The notes under the pieces were generated by a model. The model was not told the DNA's origin. It saw only the letters and a list, made by a program, of their open reading frames with translations, and searched no databases. Of a stretch of DNA of 64,000 nucleotides, positions 14,258-24,595 are shown piece after piece. The stretch's first letter is position 1; every line of letters begins with the position of its first letter. The stretch lies in NCBI GenBank assembly GCA_025963715.1, contig JAOQAG010000005.1, positions 1 to 64,000 on the forward strand, given 5' to 3'. Origin of the DNA: Bacteroidota bacterium (GTDB lineage Bacteria; Bacteroidota; Bacteroidia; 2-12-FULL-35-15). Both the position numbers and the translations under genes were made by a program.

Positions 14258-16333
14258 ATGAAAAAACCAGCACATGACAAGTCCGCGCTTTTTGATCGCG
14301 ACCCCTCTCATTTCGAAACCGACAAAGCTGCGGTAGAAGCCATCGTTCAGGCGGCAGTAAATGTGGAATTGTTTACCATTCCATTGTACATGACCAGCCT
14401 GTACTCCCTGCAGGGTGTTCACCAGATCAACAGCAAAGGAAGCGATATGTATAAAGGCCGCGTATGGCCGGGATTAGCGCCAAGCTTTAAACCGGGCTCG
14501 CTGGGCAATGTTCCTGAAAACGAAAAAGCATTCAATACTATTTTCAGTGTGTTTATTGAAGAGATGCTGCACTTGCAAATTGCATCCAACCTTGCCAATA
14601 TTTTAAAAGTAAAACCGACATTTACACAAATGTCGACCAAGGCTGATCATTACGCATGGTCGTGTTACGGAGATGACAAAACCGAGATCCCGTACATTCT
14701 TGATTTCCGGGATTGCAAACCGCCTTATGATAAAATAAAAGTAAAGCTGGATAAATTATCGCTGGAGCAAAACGAATTGTTCCTTGCTATTGAAGCGCCG
14801 GAAAATGATGAGCCGGGAAAAACATCCGCCATTGAGCGAATCAAAGACAATGCATCGGAACGCATCCACCCGTATTTTCCTTCGGTACCCCTGAAGAACT
14901 GGAAAAAAGGCGATAAGCTGCCGATGTTCGGTTCCATTGGTGCCATGTACCAATGCCTGTGGGATTATTTTGATATGGAATACAAAGCAAAAGATGGAAC
15001 GGTTACCACGCTGTGGGAAAAAATGTATTGTTCCGCTACATTGCAACGCGATCTGTTTAACGTTACTTCTAAAAGCCATCCATACAGGGAATACCAGGGA
15101 TTGGAAACAAAAGTGGAAGGCTGGTTACCGCCTGCAGCAAAAGAAATGGCGTTTAAATTAATTTGCGCGATCACCGATCAGGGCGAAGGAAAAGGAATCA
15201 GTAAAAACATCCGCCCTAGCCCGAACATATTAAAAGCAGTAGCACCGGTAAACCAGGCATCGGACATTGCATTGAAAAAAGATTATCCTTCTTACAATGA
15301 TGAAGGAAAAGAAGTTCCATCTGCAAAAGCACATGCCCGTTTTGGAAACGGAGCAGAAGATCACTACGAGCGTTTCCTTGCGATAAAAACCGATCTGGAA
15401 TCGAACAAAATTGTAACCTGGGACGAGTGGAGAGCCGGTGAAACCAACAAATGGAAAGCAAAAGACCTGGAAGGACATGGGTATGATCCGAAATATAATA
15501 ATTTGCCGACTGCCGAAAAAATTGCAGCAGCATTGAATCGACTTGCTAATCCAACAAAAGCGGACGGCACGCCGGACAAAGAAAAACAAAAAGCGAATTA
15601 TAAACAATTCTGTCAGATTGCTACCGGCGCCATTGCCGGGATTACAACCGTGCTGGATGATTATTGGAAAGATGCAGCAGTTGGTTTTCCGTTCCCATCT
15701 ATGGGCGGTTCCGGCGATCGTTTGATGATGTGCTGGGCGGTATTTGGTAAAGTGCCTGATCTTTCAGTAGGTATACAACCGCGCCTGAAAGATAAATTAT
15801 ACCATGCCTGCCAGGGAATGGATCTCACAAATGATTTAACTACGGTGGATAATATTTGCGGTTCGCCGGAAGTATACCACAATTGCAAAGGCTCCAATTC
15901 CTGTAAAGCCGAAGGCGGCTGCGGATTTGTGCAGCAGGTGGGCCAGTCGCAATCCTGCGGTGGCAGCAGCAGCGTAGCAATATTGCAGGCGCGTGACGGT
16001 GTGGAGTTAACTGCTGCTTACAGCGCTCCTGCGGATAATATCTGCAAAAGCTTTGGTGGCTGTGCGGTTCCTATTTCGGCATCGCAGATCTATCCTGATT
16101 TTGAGAACACGCAAAAAATGGCGAATGTTGGCGCTATGGAATTGAATGATTTTGTAGGTAAAGATCATAAAACGGTAAAAATACCAAATGCAAAACTGGA
16201 ATTTAAATCGGGTGATTATGTATACGATGTTGCCTGGAAAGCGTACACCGAAGTGTTGAAGCACCGTAAAAAAACGGTACCGGCAATGCCGGAACCAAGC
16301 GATATCCGTTTGGCATTTCCTCCATCCACCTAG
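14258..16333 (+). CDS. Ferritin-like protein (VioB/iminophenyl-pyruvate dimer synthase family) with internal Cys-rich segment
   Basis: 691 residues, no signal peptide. The N-terminal ferritin-like domain (PF12902 type, about residues 20-330) shows [18 protein letters not shown] with Glu37 and [14 protein letters not shown] with Glu101/102 and His105, consistent with a diiron-type E...EExxH site. Near the C-terminus (residues 534-602) is a cysteine-rich stretch: C543-K-G-S-N-S-C549-K-A-E-G-G-C555-G, then C567, and later C596-K-S-F-G-G-C602-A-V-P. The C-terminus ends RLAFPPST, as in VioB-like relatives. Fourteen bases later starts a DUF692 iron oxygenase, whose known substrates carry cysteine motifs of the EGKCG kind. 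I infer that this protein is both a diiron enzyme or scaffold and the substrate of the modification enzymes. It is much longer than known MNIO precursors. Confidence 0.85.
15857..16066 (+). other. Cysteine-rich candidate modification segment within the ferritin-like protein
   Basis: Codons 534-602 encode seven cysteines (534, 543, 549, 555, 567, 596, 602) in two clusters with CK..GGC repeats. The first cluster contains E-G-G-C-G, one residue off the EGKCG motif modified in bufferins by MNIO enzymes (family knowledge). Outside this segment the protein has few cysteines. Confidence 0.6.
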
Positions 16334-16347
16334 TTTGCAGAATTGAT

Positions 16348-17271
16348 ATGACTACAACAAATGCACATCGCCTTGGCCTTCCCAATTTAGGGTTAGGCCT
16401 TGGCTTACGCAGTAAACATTATGATTACCTGCTGAAGCACGATCCGATAGTGGATTGGTTTGAGATCATCAGTGAGAATTACATGAACAACTTTGGTTTT
16501 GCAAGGCATGTGCTGGAGCATATCGCCAATGTAAAACCGGTGGTGATGCATGGCGTTTCTATGTCGATCGGCAGCACCGATCCGCTGAACATGGAATATC
16601 TGAAACAACTGAAAGAGCTGGCTGCATTTGTAAAACCGGCCTGGATCTCCGATCATTTATGCTGGACAGGTGTGGCGCATATGAATACGCACGACCTGTT
16701 GCCACTACCGCTTACGCTGGAAAGCCTGAAACATGTGGCTGAACGTGTGAACCGCGTGCAGGATTTTTTAGAGCGTCCTTTAATTTTAGAAAACCCATCC
16801 ACGTACATGGAGTTCGAAGATTCCACCTTGCATGAATGGGAATTTTTATCGGAGCTGGTAAATCAAACCGGCTGTGGCTTGTTGCTGGATGTGAACAACG
16901 TATTTGTATCGGGGCACAACCATGGTTTTGATCCCGAATTTTATATCCGCAACATTCCGCACAAAGCGGTGGTGCAGATCCACATTGCAGGCCCAACCGA
17001 TTGCGGCCCGCTGCTGATCGATACACACGACCAGCCTGTACCAACGGAAGTCTGGAAATTGTATCGCCTGGCGCAGGAGCTTACCGGCGGCGTTTCTACT
17101 TTATTGGAATGGGATGCCAACATTCCGGATTACCCTGAAATGGTGCTGGAAGTAGAGAAAGCAAAAAAAGTAATGCTGGGCGAATTACCCGACGTTGCTA
17201 TTTTTCAATCGCAGCATCCGGAAGTAATTTCCAACCCGATCGATCATCAAATGCAGGCGGCGCATGAATAA
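16348..17271 (+). CDS. DUF692 multinuclear non-heme iron-dependent oxidative enzyme (MNIO)
   Basis: 307 residues with a TIM-barrel of the MbnB/TglH/BufB family. Predicted metal ligands are all in place: E39/E43 region ([10 protein letters not shown]), H68 ([11 protein letters not shown]), D102-H103 (SDHLCW), E148-N149 ([11 protein letters not shown]), D181-N183 ([10 protein letters not shown]), H190/H192, H212 (QIHIAG), D225/H227 (IDTHDQPV) and E254 (LLEWDANIP). Known members use two or three irons and O2 to rearrange cysteine residues in peptides (oxazolone/thioamide, 5-thiooxazole or carbon excision). It lies 14 bases after the ferritin-like gene and overlaps the DUF2063 gene by eight bases, so it is translationally coupled. 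Confidence 0.95.
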
Positions 17272-18103
17272 GCTGGAAACCACGCAGCGCTGGCTCACGT
17301 CCATCATTATCCGGCCCGGCCGTTTGCACGATAAAATTTCTGCAGCCGATAAAACCTATCAACTGGATACGGAAAAAATGATTCGTACTTCCGCGACATT
17401 ATCGCCGGAAAACAGGATCAGCGTATATGCACGCGGATATGTGCTGCGCCTGATGGAATGCATGCGTGCGGATTACCCGGTATTGCTGCATTTGTTGGGA
17501 GAAGAATTGTTCAACAGTTTTGTACAGGCGTATTTGGTAAATGTTCCTTCGCATTCGCCGAGCTTGTATGACCTTGGAGAAAATTTTCCGGCATTTTTAA
17601 AAGCATCGCAACCACAACAAAATGAAGATGCGGAAATGTTTGATCTGCCAGTAGAATTGGCCCAGGTGGAACGCACACGGGTGGAAGTGGAGCGGAGTAA
17701 GGGATTGGAAACAGAACAAACGGCTAATTCAGACGATTCGCTTTTTCATTTTTTAGGAACCTCCAATTATAATGTATCGCCTTGTTTGCGTTTGCTGCAA
17801 TTGCAATACGAGCTACTGGATTTTATAAAAGCCGTAGAACGCGGAAAAGAAGCTGAAACACCGGAGCGAAAAATAAATTATTTAGCGATCAGCCGGAAAA
17901 ATTATGCAGTGAATTTGCAGCAGCTGGAAGCCTGGCAATTCTACTATTTAAAAGCATTGGCAATAACCGGGGATCACAATGCAGCTGTAAAAATAGCGGC
18001 AACTGAAAGCGGGATCCCGGAAGAAAGCATCATGGCGGATCTGCTTTTATGGATCCCGGTAGCAATGGAATACGGTTACGTGTTTTTGGATGACAGATTT
18101 TAG
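17264..18103 (+). CDS. DUF2063 (BufC/TglI-type) partner of the MNIO enzyme
   Basis: 279 residues. The N-terminal half carries the DUF2063 pattern [32 protein letters not shown] and [13 protein letters not shown]. In characterised systems this domain binds the leader or core peptide and presents it to the DUF692 enzyme. The middle (residues 120-160) is a variable acidic insertion, and the C-terminal half ([20 protein letters not shown]) corresponds to the second helical domain. The start codon lies within the end of the MNIO gene. It is the last gene of the operon and is followed immediately by an inverted repeat. Confidence 0.92.
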
Positions 18104-18173
18104 ATGTTGGATGTTAGACTGTGTGTAATTAAAACATTGCAAACACAGTCTAACATCCAATATCTAACATCCA
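18104..18173. repeat. Inverted repeat of TAACATC words after the MNIO operon
   Basis: GATGTTGGATGTTAGACTGTG and its complement CACAGTCTAACATCCAA (then TATCTAACATCC) flank a 20-base loop. The same CAGTCTAACATCTAA words occur at 50158 and 58086. It is the likely terminator structure for the operon, though it lacks a T-run. Confidence 0.75.
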
Positions 18174-23027: not shown

Positions 23028-23049
23028 ATTTTTATTGTCATTGCAATCA

Positions 23050-23994
23050 ATGGAAAAATTAAGATCATTAGAAATATGTGCGGGAGCGGGTGGTCAGGCC
23101 TTAGGTATTGAGCAGGCCGGATTTGAACATTTGGCATTAGTCGAAATTGAACCTTTGGCATGCGAAACATTACGCATTAATAAGCCTAAATGGAATGTAT
23201 ATCAATGCGATGTAAAAAAATTTAGTGCAACAGCCTATAAAGGAAAAGTTGATCTTTTTGCAGGAGGTGTGCCTTGTCCTCCGTTTTCGAAAGCTGGTAA
23301 GCAATTAGGTCATTTAGATGACCGGGATTTATTTCCGGAAGCGCTTCGCCTGATTAAAGAATGCAATCCCAAAGCAATATTACTGGAAAATGTACGGGGC
23401 TTATTAGACCCTAAATTTTCGGAATACCGTGACGAAATTATTTTTGAATTGCAAAAGTTAGGATATGATAGTACCTGGAAATTATTGAATTCATCTGATT
23501 ATGGTGTATCCCAACTTCGGCCCAGAGCAATTTTAGTAGCATTGAAAAAAAAATATTTCAAAAAATTCGAATGGCCTTTAGCGACGAAAAAAAAACCTGT
23601 ATCAATTGGTGAGCTACTGTATACTGAAATGGCTCAGTTTGGATGGAAAGAAGTGGAACAATGGAAACAAAAAGCAAATAAAATCGGGCCAACACTTGTG
23701 GGAGGATCTAAAAAACACGGCGGTGCAGATTTAGGTCCAACAAGAGCAAAAAAGGCCTGGGCAGAGCTATCAGTGGATGGTAAAGGCCTTGCAGATGCAG
23801 CTCCTTTAAAAAATTTTAAAGGTAATCCAAGATTAACGTTAAAAATGACGGCCCTCGTTCAGGGGTTCCCAAATAATTGGGAGTTTGTAGGAAAAAAAAC
23901 GCCTGCTTACAGGCAAGTTGGAAATGCTTTTCCTCCACCTGTTGCAAAAGCTGTGGGAAAAGCAATATTAAAAGCGCTACATGATGGAAAATAA
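23050..23994 (+). CDS. DNA (cytosine-5) methyltransferase
   Basis: 314 residues from the ATG at 23050. A TTG 15 bases upstream is an alternative start. C5-MTase motifs run in order: I (LEICAGAGGQALG, SAM site), IV (AGGVPCPPFSKAG with nucleophile Cys76), VI (LLENVRGL), VIII (QLRPRAILVAL), a short target-recognition region with VGGSKKHGGADLG, and X (YRQVGNAFPPPVAKAVG). It should methylate a short palindromic or near-palindromic site and protect it from the overlapping HNH endonuclease. The specificity cannot be read from sequence. The final codons overlap the endonuclease by 14 bases. Confidence 0.95.
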   Translation: MEKLRSLEICAGAGGQALGIEQAGFEHLALVEIEPLACETLRINKPKWNVYQCDVKKFSATAYKGKVDLFAGGVPCPPFSKAGKQLGHLDDRDLFPEALRLIKECNPKAILLENVRGLLDPKFSEYRDEIIFELQKLGYDSTWKLLNSSDYGVSQLRPRAILVALKKKYFKKFEWPLATKKKPVSIGELLYTEMAQFGWKEVEQWKQKANKIGPTLVGGSKKHGGADLGPTRAKKAWAELSVDGKGLADAAPLKNFKGNPRLTLKMTALVQGFPNNWEFVGKKTPAYRQVGNAFPPPVAKAVGKAILKALHDGK

Positions 23995-24595
23995 AGAAAA
24001 GGCACCAAAGAGGAAAGGAGCAAGACTTAAGCTTAGAGAATATTTTATCGCAAATGTTGGTAAAGTATTGGATTCTAAAACACTTCAGGGTGTAGCTGAA
24101 GGAAGTAGTGAATGGGGAAGGCGTGTCAGAGAATTAAGAAATGAGGAAGGGATGAATATTGTAACACACAATGATCTCAGTGAGTTAAAGCCCGGGCAAT
24201 ATATGTTAGTGAATTTAAAACCGATGCCTGCTTTTGAAAGAGGCATTTCTAAGGAAACACGGGCTTTTGTTTTGGATCGGAACGGATTCACTTGTCAGAT
24301 GTGTGGAGCCGCCGCCGGTGAGCCCAATCCATTTGATAGTAACAGAAAGACACGATTACATATCGGACATATCATTGATAAGTCGATGGGAGGAACCGAT
24401 ACTGCTAATAATCTGAGAGCTATCTGCTCTGTCTGCAATGAAGGCGCTTCCAACTTAACGCTTAACCGGCCGGATGCAATCAAACTGATCGCTCAGGTTA
24501 GAAGAGCACCTAACAAAGATCAACTGGATGTTTTGGAATGGCTTATTAAAAAATTTCCGGAACAATCACTAAAATTTTCTGCTAAGAAAATTTAA
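23981..24595 (+). CDS. HNH endonuclease, probable type II restriction enzyme
   Basis: 204 residues. An N-terminal winged-helix-like module (LREYFIANVGKVLDSKTLQ ... SSEWGRRVRELRNEEGM) is followed by ELKPGQYML and an HNH domain: C-Q-M-C zinc knuckle, LHIGHIIDKS (catalytic His), DTANNLRAIC and C-S-V-C-N. This arrangement is found in restriction endonucleases encoded beside C5 methyltransferases. It overlaps the methyltransferase by 14 bases (coupled), so the pair forms a complete R-M system. It lies directly outside the left att repeat of the adjoining element. Confidence 0.85.
   Translation: MMENKEKAPKRKGARLKLREYFIANVGKVLDSKTLQGVAEGSSEWGRRVRELRNEEGMNIVTHNDLSELKPGQYMLVNLKPMPAFERGISKETRAFVLDRNGFTCQMCGAAAGEPNPFDSNRKTRLHIGHIIDKSMGGTDTANNLRAICSVCNEGASNLTLNRPDAIKLIAQVRRAPNKDQLDVLEWLIKKFPEQSLKFSAKKI

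Follow-up and report, generated by a model that had tools for sequence, protein, structure and literature searches.

Organization of the operon and its domains

MNIO (DUF692) enzymes are known for their action on short precursors, and the maturation of folded enzymes by them has so far been a suggestion; the locus analyzed here raises the question of whether such an enzyme may act on a large metalloprotein. The window, i.e., the whole stretch of 64,000 nucleotides analyzed (contig JAOQAG010000005.1 of the Bacteroidota assembly GCA_025963715.1), contains at positions 14258-18103 a tight three-gene operon encoding a PF12902 ferritin-like protein with a Cys-rich segment (gene A), an MNIO (gene B), and a DUF2063 partner (gene C), with 14 bp between genes A and B and an 8-bp overlap of genes B and C. 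The three ORFs, the gap, and the overlap given in the original prediction proved exact on rechecking, and its domain calls (PF12902, DUF692, and DUF2063) all scored above the Pfam cutoffs.

14258..16333, + strand: gene A, 691-aa ferritin-like protein with a C-terminal Cys-rich bufferin-like domain (PF12902, GTDB homologues)
16348..17271, + strand: gene B, 307-aa MNIO (DUF692) of the BufB class (PF05114, NF050167)
17264..18103, + strand: gene C, 279-aa DUF2063 partner, PME-type 1 (PF09836)
14345..15199, + strand: PF12902 ferritin-like domain of gene A, with candidate diiron ligands E37, E102, H105, and E310
15797..16090, + strand: Cys-rich core of gene A, residues 514 to 611, presumed MNIO target (profile match to the free-standing Cys-rich protein of relatives)
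15884..15922, + strand: Buf2-like 13-residue motif, residues 543 to 555 (conservation of C-x3-N-x-C-x3-GGC)
16091..16330, + strand: conserved C-terminal tail, residues 612 to 691, ending SDIRLxFPPST (alignment)

Gene A matched PF12902 with 78.6 bits (cutoff, 22.3). Seven of its residues (E37, E102, H105, E179, Y231, E310, and H369) were identical in all 19 PF12902 proteins aligned, a set that included proteins both with and without an MNIO, and five of them (E37, E102, H105, E310, and H369, the last situated just downstream of the PF12902 domain) are putative metal ligands, arranged as E, ExxH, E, H like those of diiron sites. This ligand set is common to gene A and the PF12902 proteins, and the ferritin-like fold is likewise found in VioB and other members of the family (PDB 3hl1, Caulobacter CC_0557); PDB 3hl1 was the sole significant PDB match of the AlphaFold model of gene A, which was of moderate quality (pLDDT 60). 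The label "VioB-type" used previously held for the shared PF12902 domain only: the VioB equivalog model TIGR04492 did not match gene A, the unfused ferritin-like protein described below reached 17.5 bits against a cutoff of 1250, and a VioB orthologue was ruled out by this model.

The Cys-rich segment of gene A contained eight cysteines (C518, C534, C543, C549, C555, C567, C596, and C602), and those at positions 518, 543, 549, 555, 567, 596, and 602 were conserved in the alignments. The C-x3-N-x-C-x3-GGC motif was present in 19/19 fused proteins and 6/6 separate Cys-rich proteins, with a second element, N-x-C-x3-GGC, likewise in 19/19 proteins. In the AlphaFold model the Cys region had a pLDDT below 50, so that its geometry is uninformative there, and the core is possibly disordered. 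Judged by hydropathy only, gene A had no N-terminal hydrophobic stretch like those of two signal-bearing precursors.

Gene B, the single MNIO gene found in the window genome, scored 352.9 bits against PF05114 (cutoff, 25) and passed the NCBIfam bufferin-maturase equivalog NF050167 (354.6 bits; cutoff, 310). Its scores against the MbnB, ApyH, ChrH, and HvfB models of NCBIfam were each below the cutoff, and for MbnB, ApyH, and ChrH far below (e.g., 51.2 bits against the MbnB equivalog TIGR04159, with a cutoff of 325); a TglH-like or MbnB-like MNIO was ruled out by these cutoffs and the class of the enzyme. The iron ligands of TglH are H71, H107, E151, D184, N187, H216, D229, H231, and E258 (PMC10880893), and the presence of metal ligands claimed previously was borne out by counterparts in gene B for all nine of them (H68, H103, E148, D181, N184, H212, D225, H227, and E254), although H68 lay beyond the pairwise alignment with TglH and was placed via the conserved VMHGVS motif. 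Gene B therefore has the tri-iron ligand set of the MNIO superfamily together with PF05114. Gene C matched PF09836 with 70.5 bits (cutoff, 27.2), and its match to the HvfC partner model NF050145 was weak (54 bits, under the cutoff of 142).

Conservation of the fused operon

With protein A as the query, 15 homologues with 55 to 74% identity were retrieved from GTDB genomes, and in 15/15 loci the MNIO and DUF2063 genes lay directly behind the gene A homologue in the same order, with flanking genes that were unrelated in most lineages. The same three genes occurred in two further Bacteroidota (51% identity) and on a Pseudoalteromonas megaplasmid (36% identity), and a second Pseudoalteromonas record also has gene A. 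An artifact or a chance neighborhood was ruled out by the 15/15 conservation of the operon and the Pseudoalteromonas copy. Phylogenetic analysis of the MNIO revealed that all enzymes of the fused form grouped in one clade (support 99/93), neighbored by those of the separate form described below and Buf2-like enzymes and apart from the EGKCG/oxazolin type, a topology that is compatible with either fusion or separation having come first.

One operon, with 65% identity, came from a record titled Ignavibacteria (L003) and was placed inside the Bacteroidota clade of the tree, reflecting either a transfer or a misbinned contig. In three related loci (L008, L009, and L010:2667-5801), an AcrB/CusA-type efflux gene preceded the fused operon at a distance of ∼200 bp; as these three loci are closely related, the link to copper from the operon neighborhood is weak.

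The two halves as separate genes and their association with MNIO

In six Bacteroidota genomes, the two halves of gene A were encoded by separate genes in the order ferritin-like protein, Cys-rich protein of ∼200 aa, MNIO, and DUF2063 protein. In one of them (G166), for instance, a ferritin-like protein of 462 aa and a Cys-rich protein of 216 aa directly preceded the MNIO and DUF2063 genes, and the same four-gene layout was found in G174, G202, G099, G320, and G343. Profile comparison with hhalign, covering four of these six genomes, matched the fused C terminus to the separate Cys-rich proteins (E value of 4.3e-10) and the fused N terminus to the separate ferritin-like proteins (E value of 1.5e-16), and cross-comparisons of unlike halves gave 0.2 to 0.3% probability and no match. 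Because each half matched its own counterpart only, the Cys-rich half is, as judged from these profiles, a genuine module that also exists as a free-standing precursor-like gene. Searches of plasmids by tblastn with the unfused Cys protein and with a Buf2 precursor led nowhere.

To see how closely the Cys part follows the MNIO, as had been proposed, 395 Bacteroidota genomes were surveyed, in which 15 PF12902 places were found and a place was counted as beside an MNIO when no more than about 3 kb separated the two. The Cys part with its motif was present in all nine places beside an MNIO (three fused and six separate) and in none of the six places away from one (Fisher's exact test, P = 2e-4), with the reservation that the nine MNIO-adjacent loci are not all independent and amount to about six versus six once close relatives are merged. 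None of the six had a Cys-rich neighbor, so that a conserved Cys segment lacking a nearby DUF692 gene, which would have spoken against the original prediction, was not encountered. In this Bacteroidota sample, 9 of the 19 MNIO genes scoring >300 bits against PF05114 belonged to the ferritin-linked group, which is thus a sizeable uncharacterized branch.

Two further arrangements were observed in the survey. Some MNIO genes (L108 to L111 and L113) were accompanied by signal-bearing-like precursors with repeated KCG/EGKCG elements and by DoxX-like genes, representing another MNIO type in Bacteroidota. Moreover, PF12902 proteins and GMC oxidoreductases formed a recurring cassette without an MNIO (L101:5561-9151, L102:6689-10666, and L103:420-3364), which in L101 and L102 also included a small gene of ∼145 aa.

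Relation to bufferins and other MNIO systems

The original prediction of an undescribed MNIO system was only partly upheld, since the system is not wholly separate and lies close to the bufferin/captophorin type by its BufB-class MNIO and Buf2-like motif. The bufferins Buf2/BufA2, with a BufB MNIO and a BufC DUF2063 partner, are part of the proposed captophorin class, and the operon resembles them in its BufB-class MNIO above the cutoff, its DUF2063 partner, the order substrate-MNIO-partner, and the CKGxNxCKxxGGC motif, which is similar to the CKGxNxCKGxGGC motif of Buf2. It differs from them in that the substrate domain is fused to a 500-aa ferritin-like enzyme, lacks a signal peptide, has about eight core cysteines with another spacing (six in bufferin), and falls under the BufA2 model cutoff, and in that the operon has no DoxX gene.

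Against the NCBIfam BufA2 model, three separate Cys-rich proteins gave weak matches (E values of 1e-4 to 7e-4, 20 to 22 bits; cutoff, 60), and the isolated Cys segment of gene A gave none in the NCBIfam scan. A Buf2-type precursor with a signal-like N terminus (L081, from G192), which scored 42.9 bits with that model, reads CKGMNECKGKGGC...CKGKNACKGKGGC and contains C-x3-N-x-C-x3-GGC twice; a profile built from the fused and separate cores, with this precursor left out, scored it at 28.0 bits, compared with ≤9.1 bits for 2000 shuffles. At the level of sequence, the resemblance of the Cys core to a Buf2 bufferin is real. The best reading is that the Cys domain of gene A would work like a bufferin without being classed as one, because it fails the tests of the BufA2 model cutoff and the signal peptide.

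Fusions of bufferins are known, including MerC-Buf1, MerC-Buf2, and Buf1-cytochrome c-FGE-sulfatase (PMC12452194), in which, as in gene A, a bufferin-type domain is joined to a metal-related protein; the MerC fusions, unlike gene A, are membrane proteins with a periplasmic bufferin part. That study makes the case for proteins being among the substrates of MNIOs, and its text makes no mention of a ferritin or PF12902 fusion; in the other MNIO literature searched, ferritin was not mentioned either and no description of the fused system was found.

Two other groups invite comparison. The putative precursors of adjamnio-I have 122 to 293 aa and 8 to 21 cysteines and are encoded before the MNIO (PMC12452194, Table 2), so that the Cys-rich gene of the split form, which is alike in length, Cys number, and gene position, may belong to this family; adjamnio-I is, however, reported with PME-type 2 partners (PMC12452194), whereas the partner here matches DUF2063. 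The TIGR04222 proteins with their Cys-rich C termini (PMC12452194) are, like gene A, large and thought to be MNIO substrates via a C-proximal Cys segment, but they are membrane proteins, mostly actinobacterial, and have PME-type 2 partners. DUF2063-type partners usually go with signal-bearing precursors (PMC12452194), a rule from which the gene A system departs, having a DUF2063 partner and no signal-like N terminus. Unlike gene A, PF12902 proteins encoded elsewhere than beside an MNIO have no Cys domain.

Probable substrate, mechanism, and alternatives

Gene A is likely to be the substrate of the MNIO; its product would combine a ferritin-like, diiron-type metalloenzyme of the cytoplasm with a bufferin-like substrate domain in one chain. 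Since in relatives the same Cys-rich stretch is a small protein of its own, made for the neighboring MNIO and partner, the modifying enzymes would very probably act on the whole metalloenzyme rather than on a small peptide, and the earlier proposal of a large protein as the substrate gains support from the six genomes in which the Cys part is a free-standing precursor-like gene.

According to the mechanism proposed here, the DUF2063 protein and the BufB-type MNIO would bind protein A, the former bringing it to the latter, and the MNIO would oxidize cysteines within the C-x3-N-x-C-x3-GGC core; the most likely products are 5-thiooxazoles, each formed with a loss of 4 Da. Characterized MNIO-DUF2063 (PME1) pairs produce 5-thiooxazoles with a loss of 4 Da per Cys and copper binding (PMC13097082), and by this analogy thiooxazole chemistry on gene A is somewhat favored; carbon excision, also considered previously, would be less likely because the pairs characterized so far gave thiooxazoles. 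The modified segment might then take up copper (or a different soft metal), which would place this metal and the ferritin-like site on one polypeptide, although a copper role is put at somewhat less than an even chance. The product would be a soluble ferritin-like enzyme with a copper-binding heterocyclic segment, which would either serve in intracellular metal handling or supply the enzyme with an additional metal/redox site. Still more tentatively, the MNIO-made heterocycles could be a built-in, protein-derived metal/redox cofactor of the ferritin-like enzyme, with copper next to the diiron site. If true, RiPP-type chemistry would mature an enzyme and not a peptide product, with both fused and two-protein versions in existence. 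Whether MNIO enzymes mature folded enzymes can be examined with the ferritin-linked family, which is soluble, comprises three genes, and has its own control in the naturally occurring two-piece form.

PF12902 proteins often adjoin flavin oxidases, namely, amine oxidases in the split form and GMC oxidoreductases in three loci without an MNIO (L101, L102, and L103), and these neighbors point to an alternative that is mainly about function and overlaps the substrate reading. In this pathway, the keto acid or aldehyde produced by a ThDP decarboxylase together with a flavin amine oxidase would be oxidized by the ferritin-like protein, much as VioB follows VioA, and the modified Cys domain would serve this reaction as a carrier, cofactor, or metal site. 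Genes resembling those of FAD amine oxidases and indolepyruvate decarboxylases are in line with the split form in three loci and lie a short way downstream of the fused operon in a fourth (L009).

L046:22-3594, L078:7383-11139, L079:52-3821, and L009:10326-14076: amine-oxidase-like and indolepyruvate-decarboxylase-like genes adjoining the ferritin/Cys/MNIO operon

At the sensitivity of the search, however, the FAD gene was missing in the window genome and in the majority of fused-form genomes, and in G343 the amine oxidase was reduced to a C-terminal fragment preceding an intact operon. Thus, amine oxidase chemistry appears to be optional or nonessential, an obligatory amine oxidase/decarboxylase pathway is ruled out by the absence from the window genome, and the small-molecule pathway as a whole is considered unlikely.

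The eight spaced cysteines could also bind metal as they are (Zn, Fe-S, or Cu thiolate), the MNIO and its partner modifying a substrate elsewhere; in some genomes, a single MNIO is noted as possibly acting on more than one precursor (PMC12452194). This is improbable in view of the single MNIO in the genome, the association of the Cys part with the MNIO, and the position of the unfused Cys gene directly before the MNIO, as a precursor would be. No separate small precursor gene was detected in the operon, in agreement with the original prediction, or in the window genome, where the Cys-precursor profile matched gene A only, and so weakly that this absence is not a strong argument. Least probable is another MNIO reaction on protein A, either β-carbon excision (TglH-like) or oxazolone/thioamide formation (MbnB-like), as MNIO chemistry is diverse (PMC12257519) but gene B passes the BufB model only and the characterized MNIO-DUF2063 pairs give 5-thiooxazole (PMC13097082).

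Surroundings of the operon

A scan for a promoter of the operon gave nothing above chance. Directly behind gene C, a perfect inverted repeat was located between this gene and a convergent SDR gene, with a predicted fold of -44.8 kcal/mol (z score of -11).

18107..18160, no strand: perfect inverted repeat with 18-bp arms starting at 18107 and 18143

The repeat is probably either a two-way terminator, marking a transcription end common to the operon and the convergent SDR gene, or a small repeat element. Further downstream in the window (23035-24595), a C5 cytosine DNA methylase gene overlaps an HNH-nuclease gene, and the two likely constitute a restriction-modification pair.
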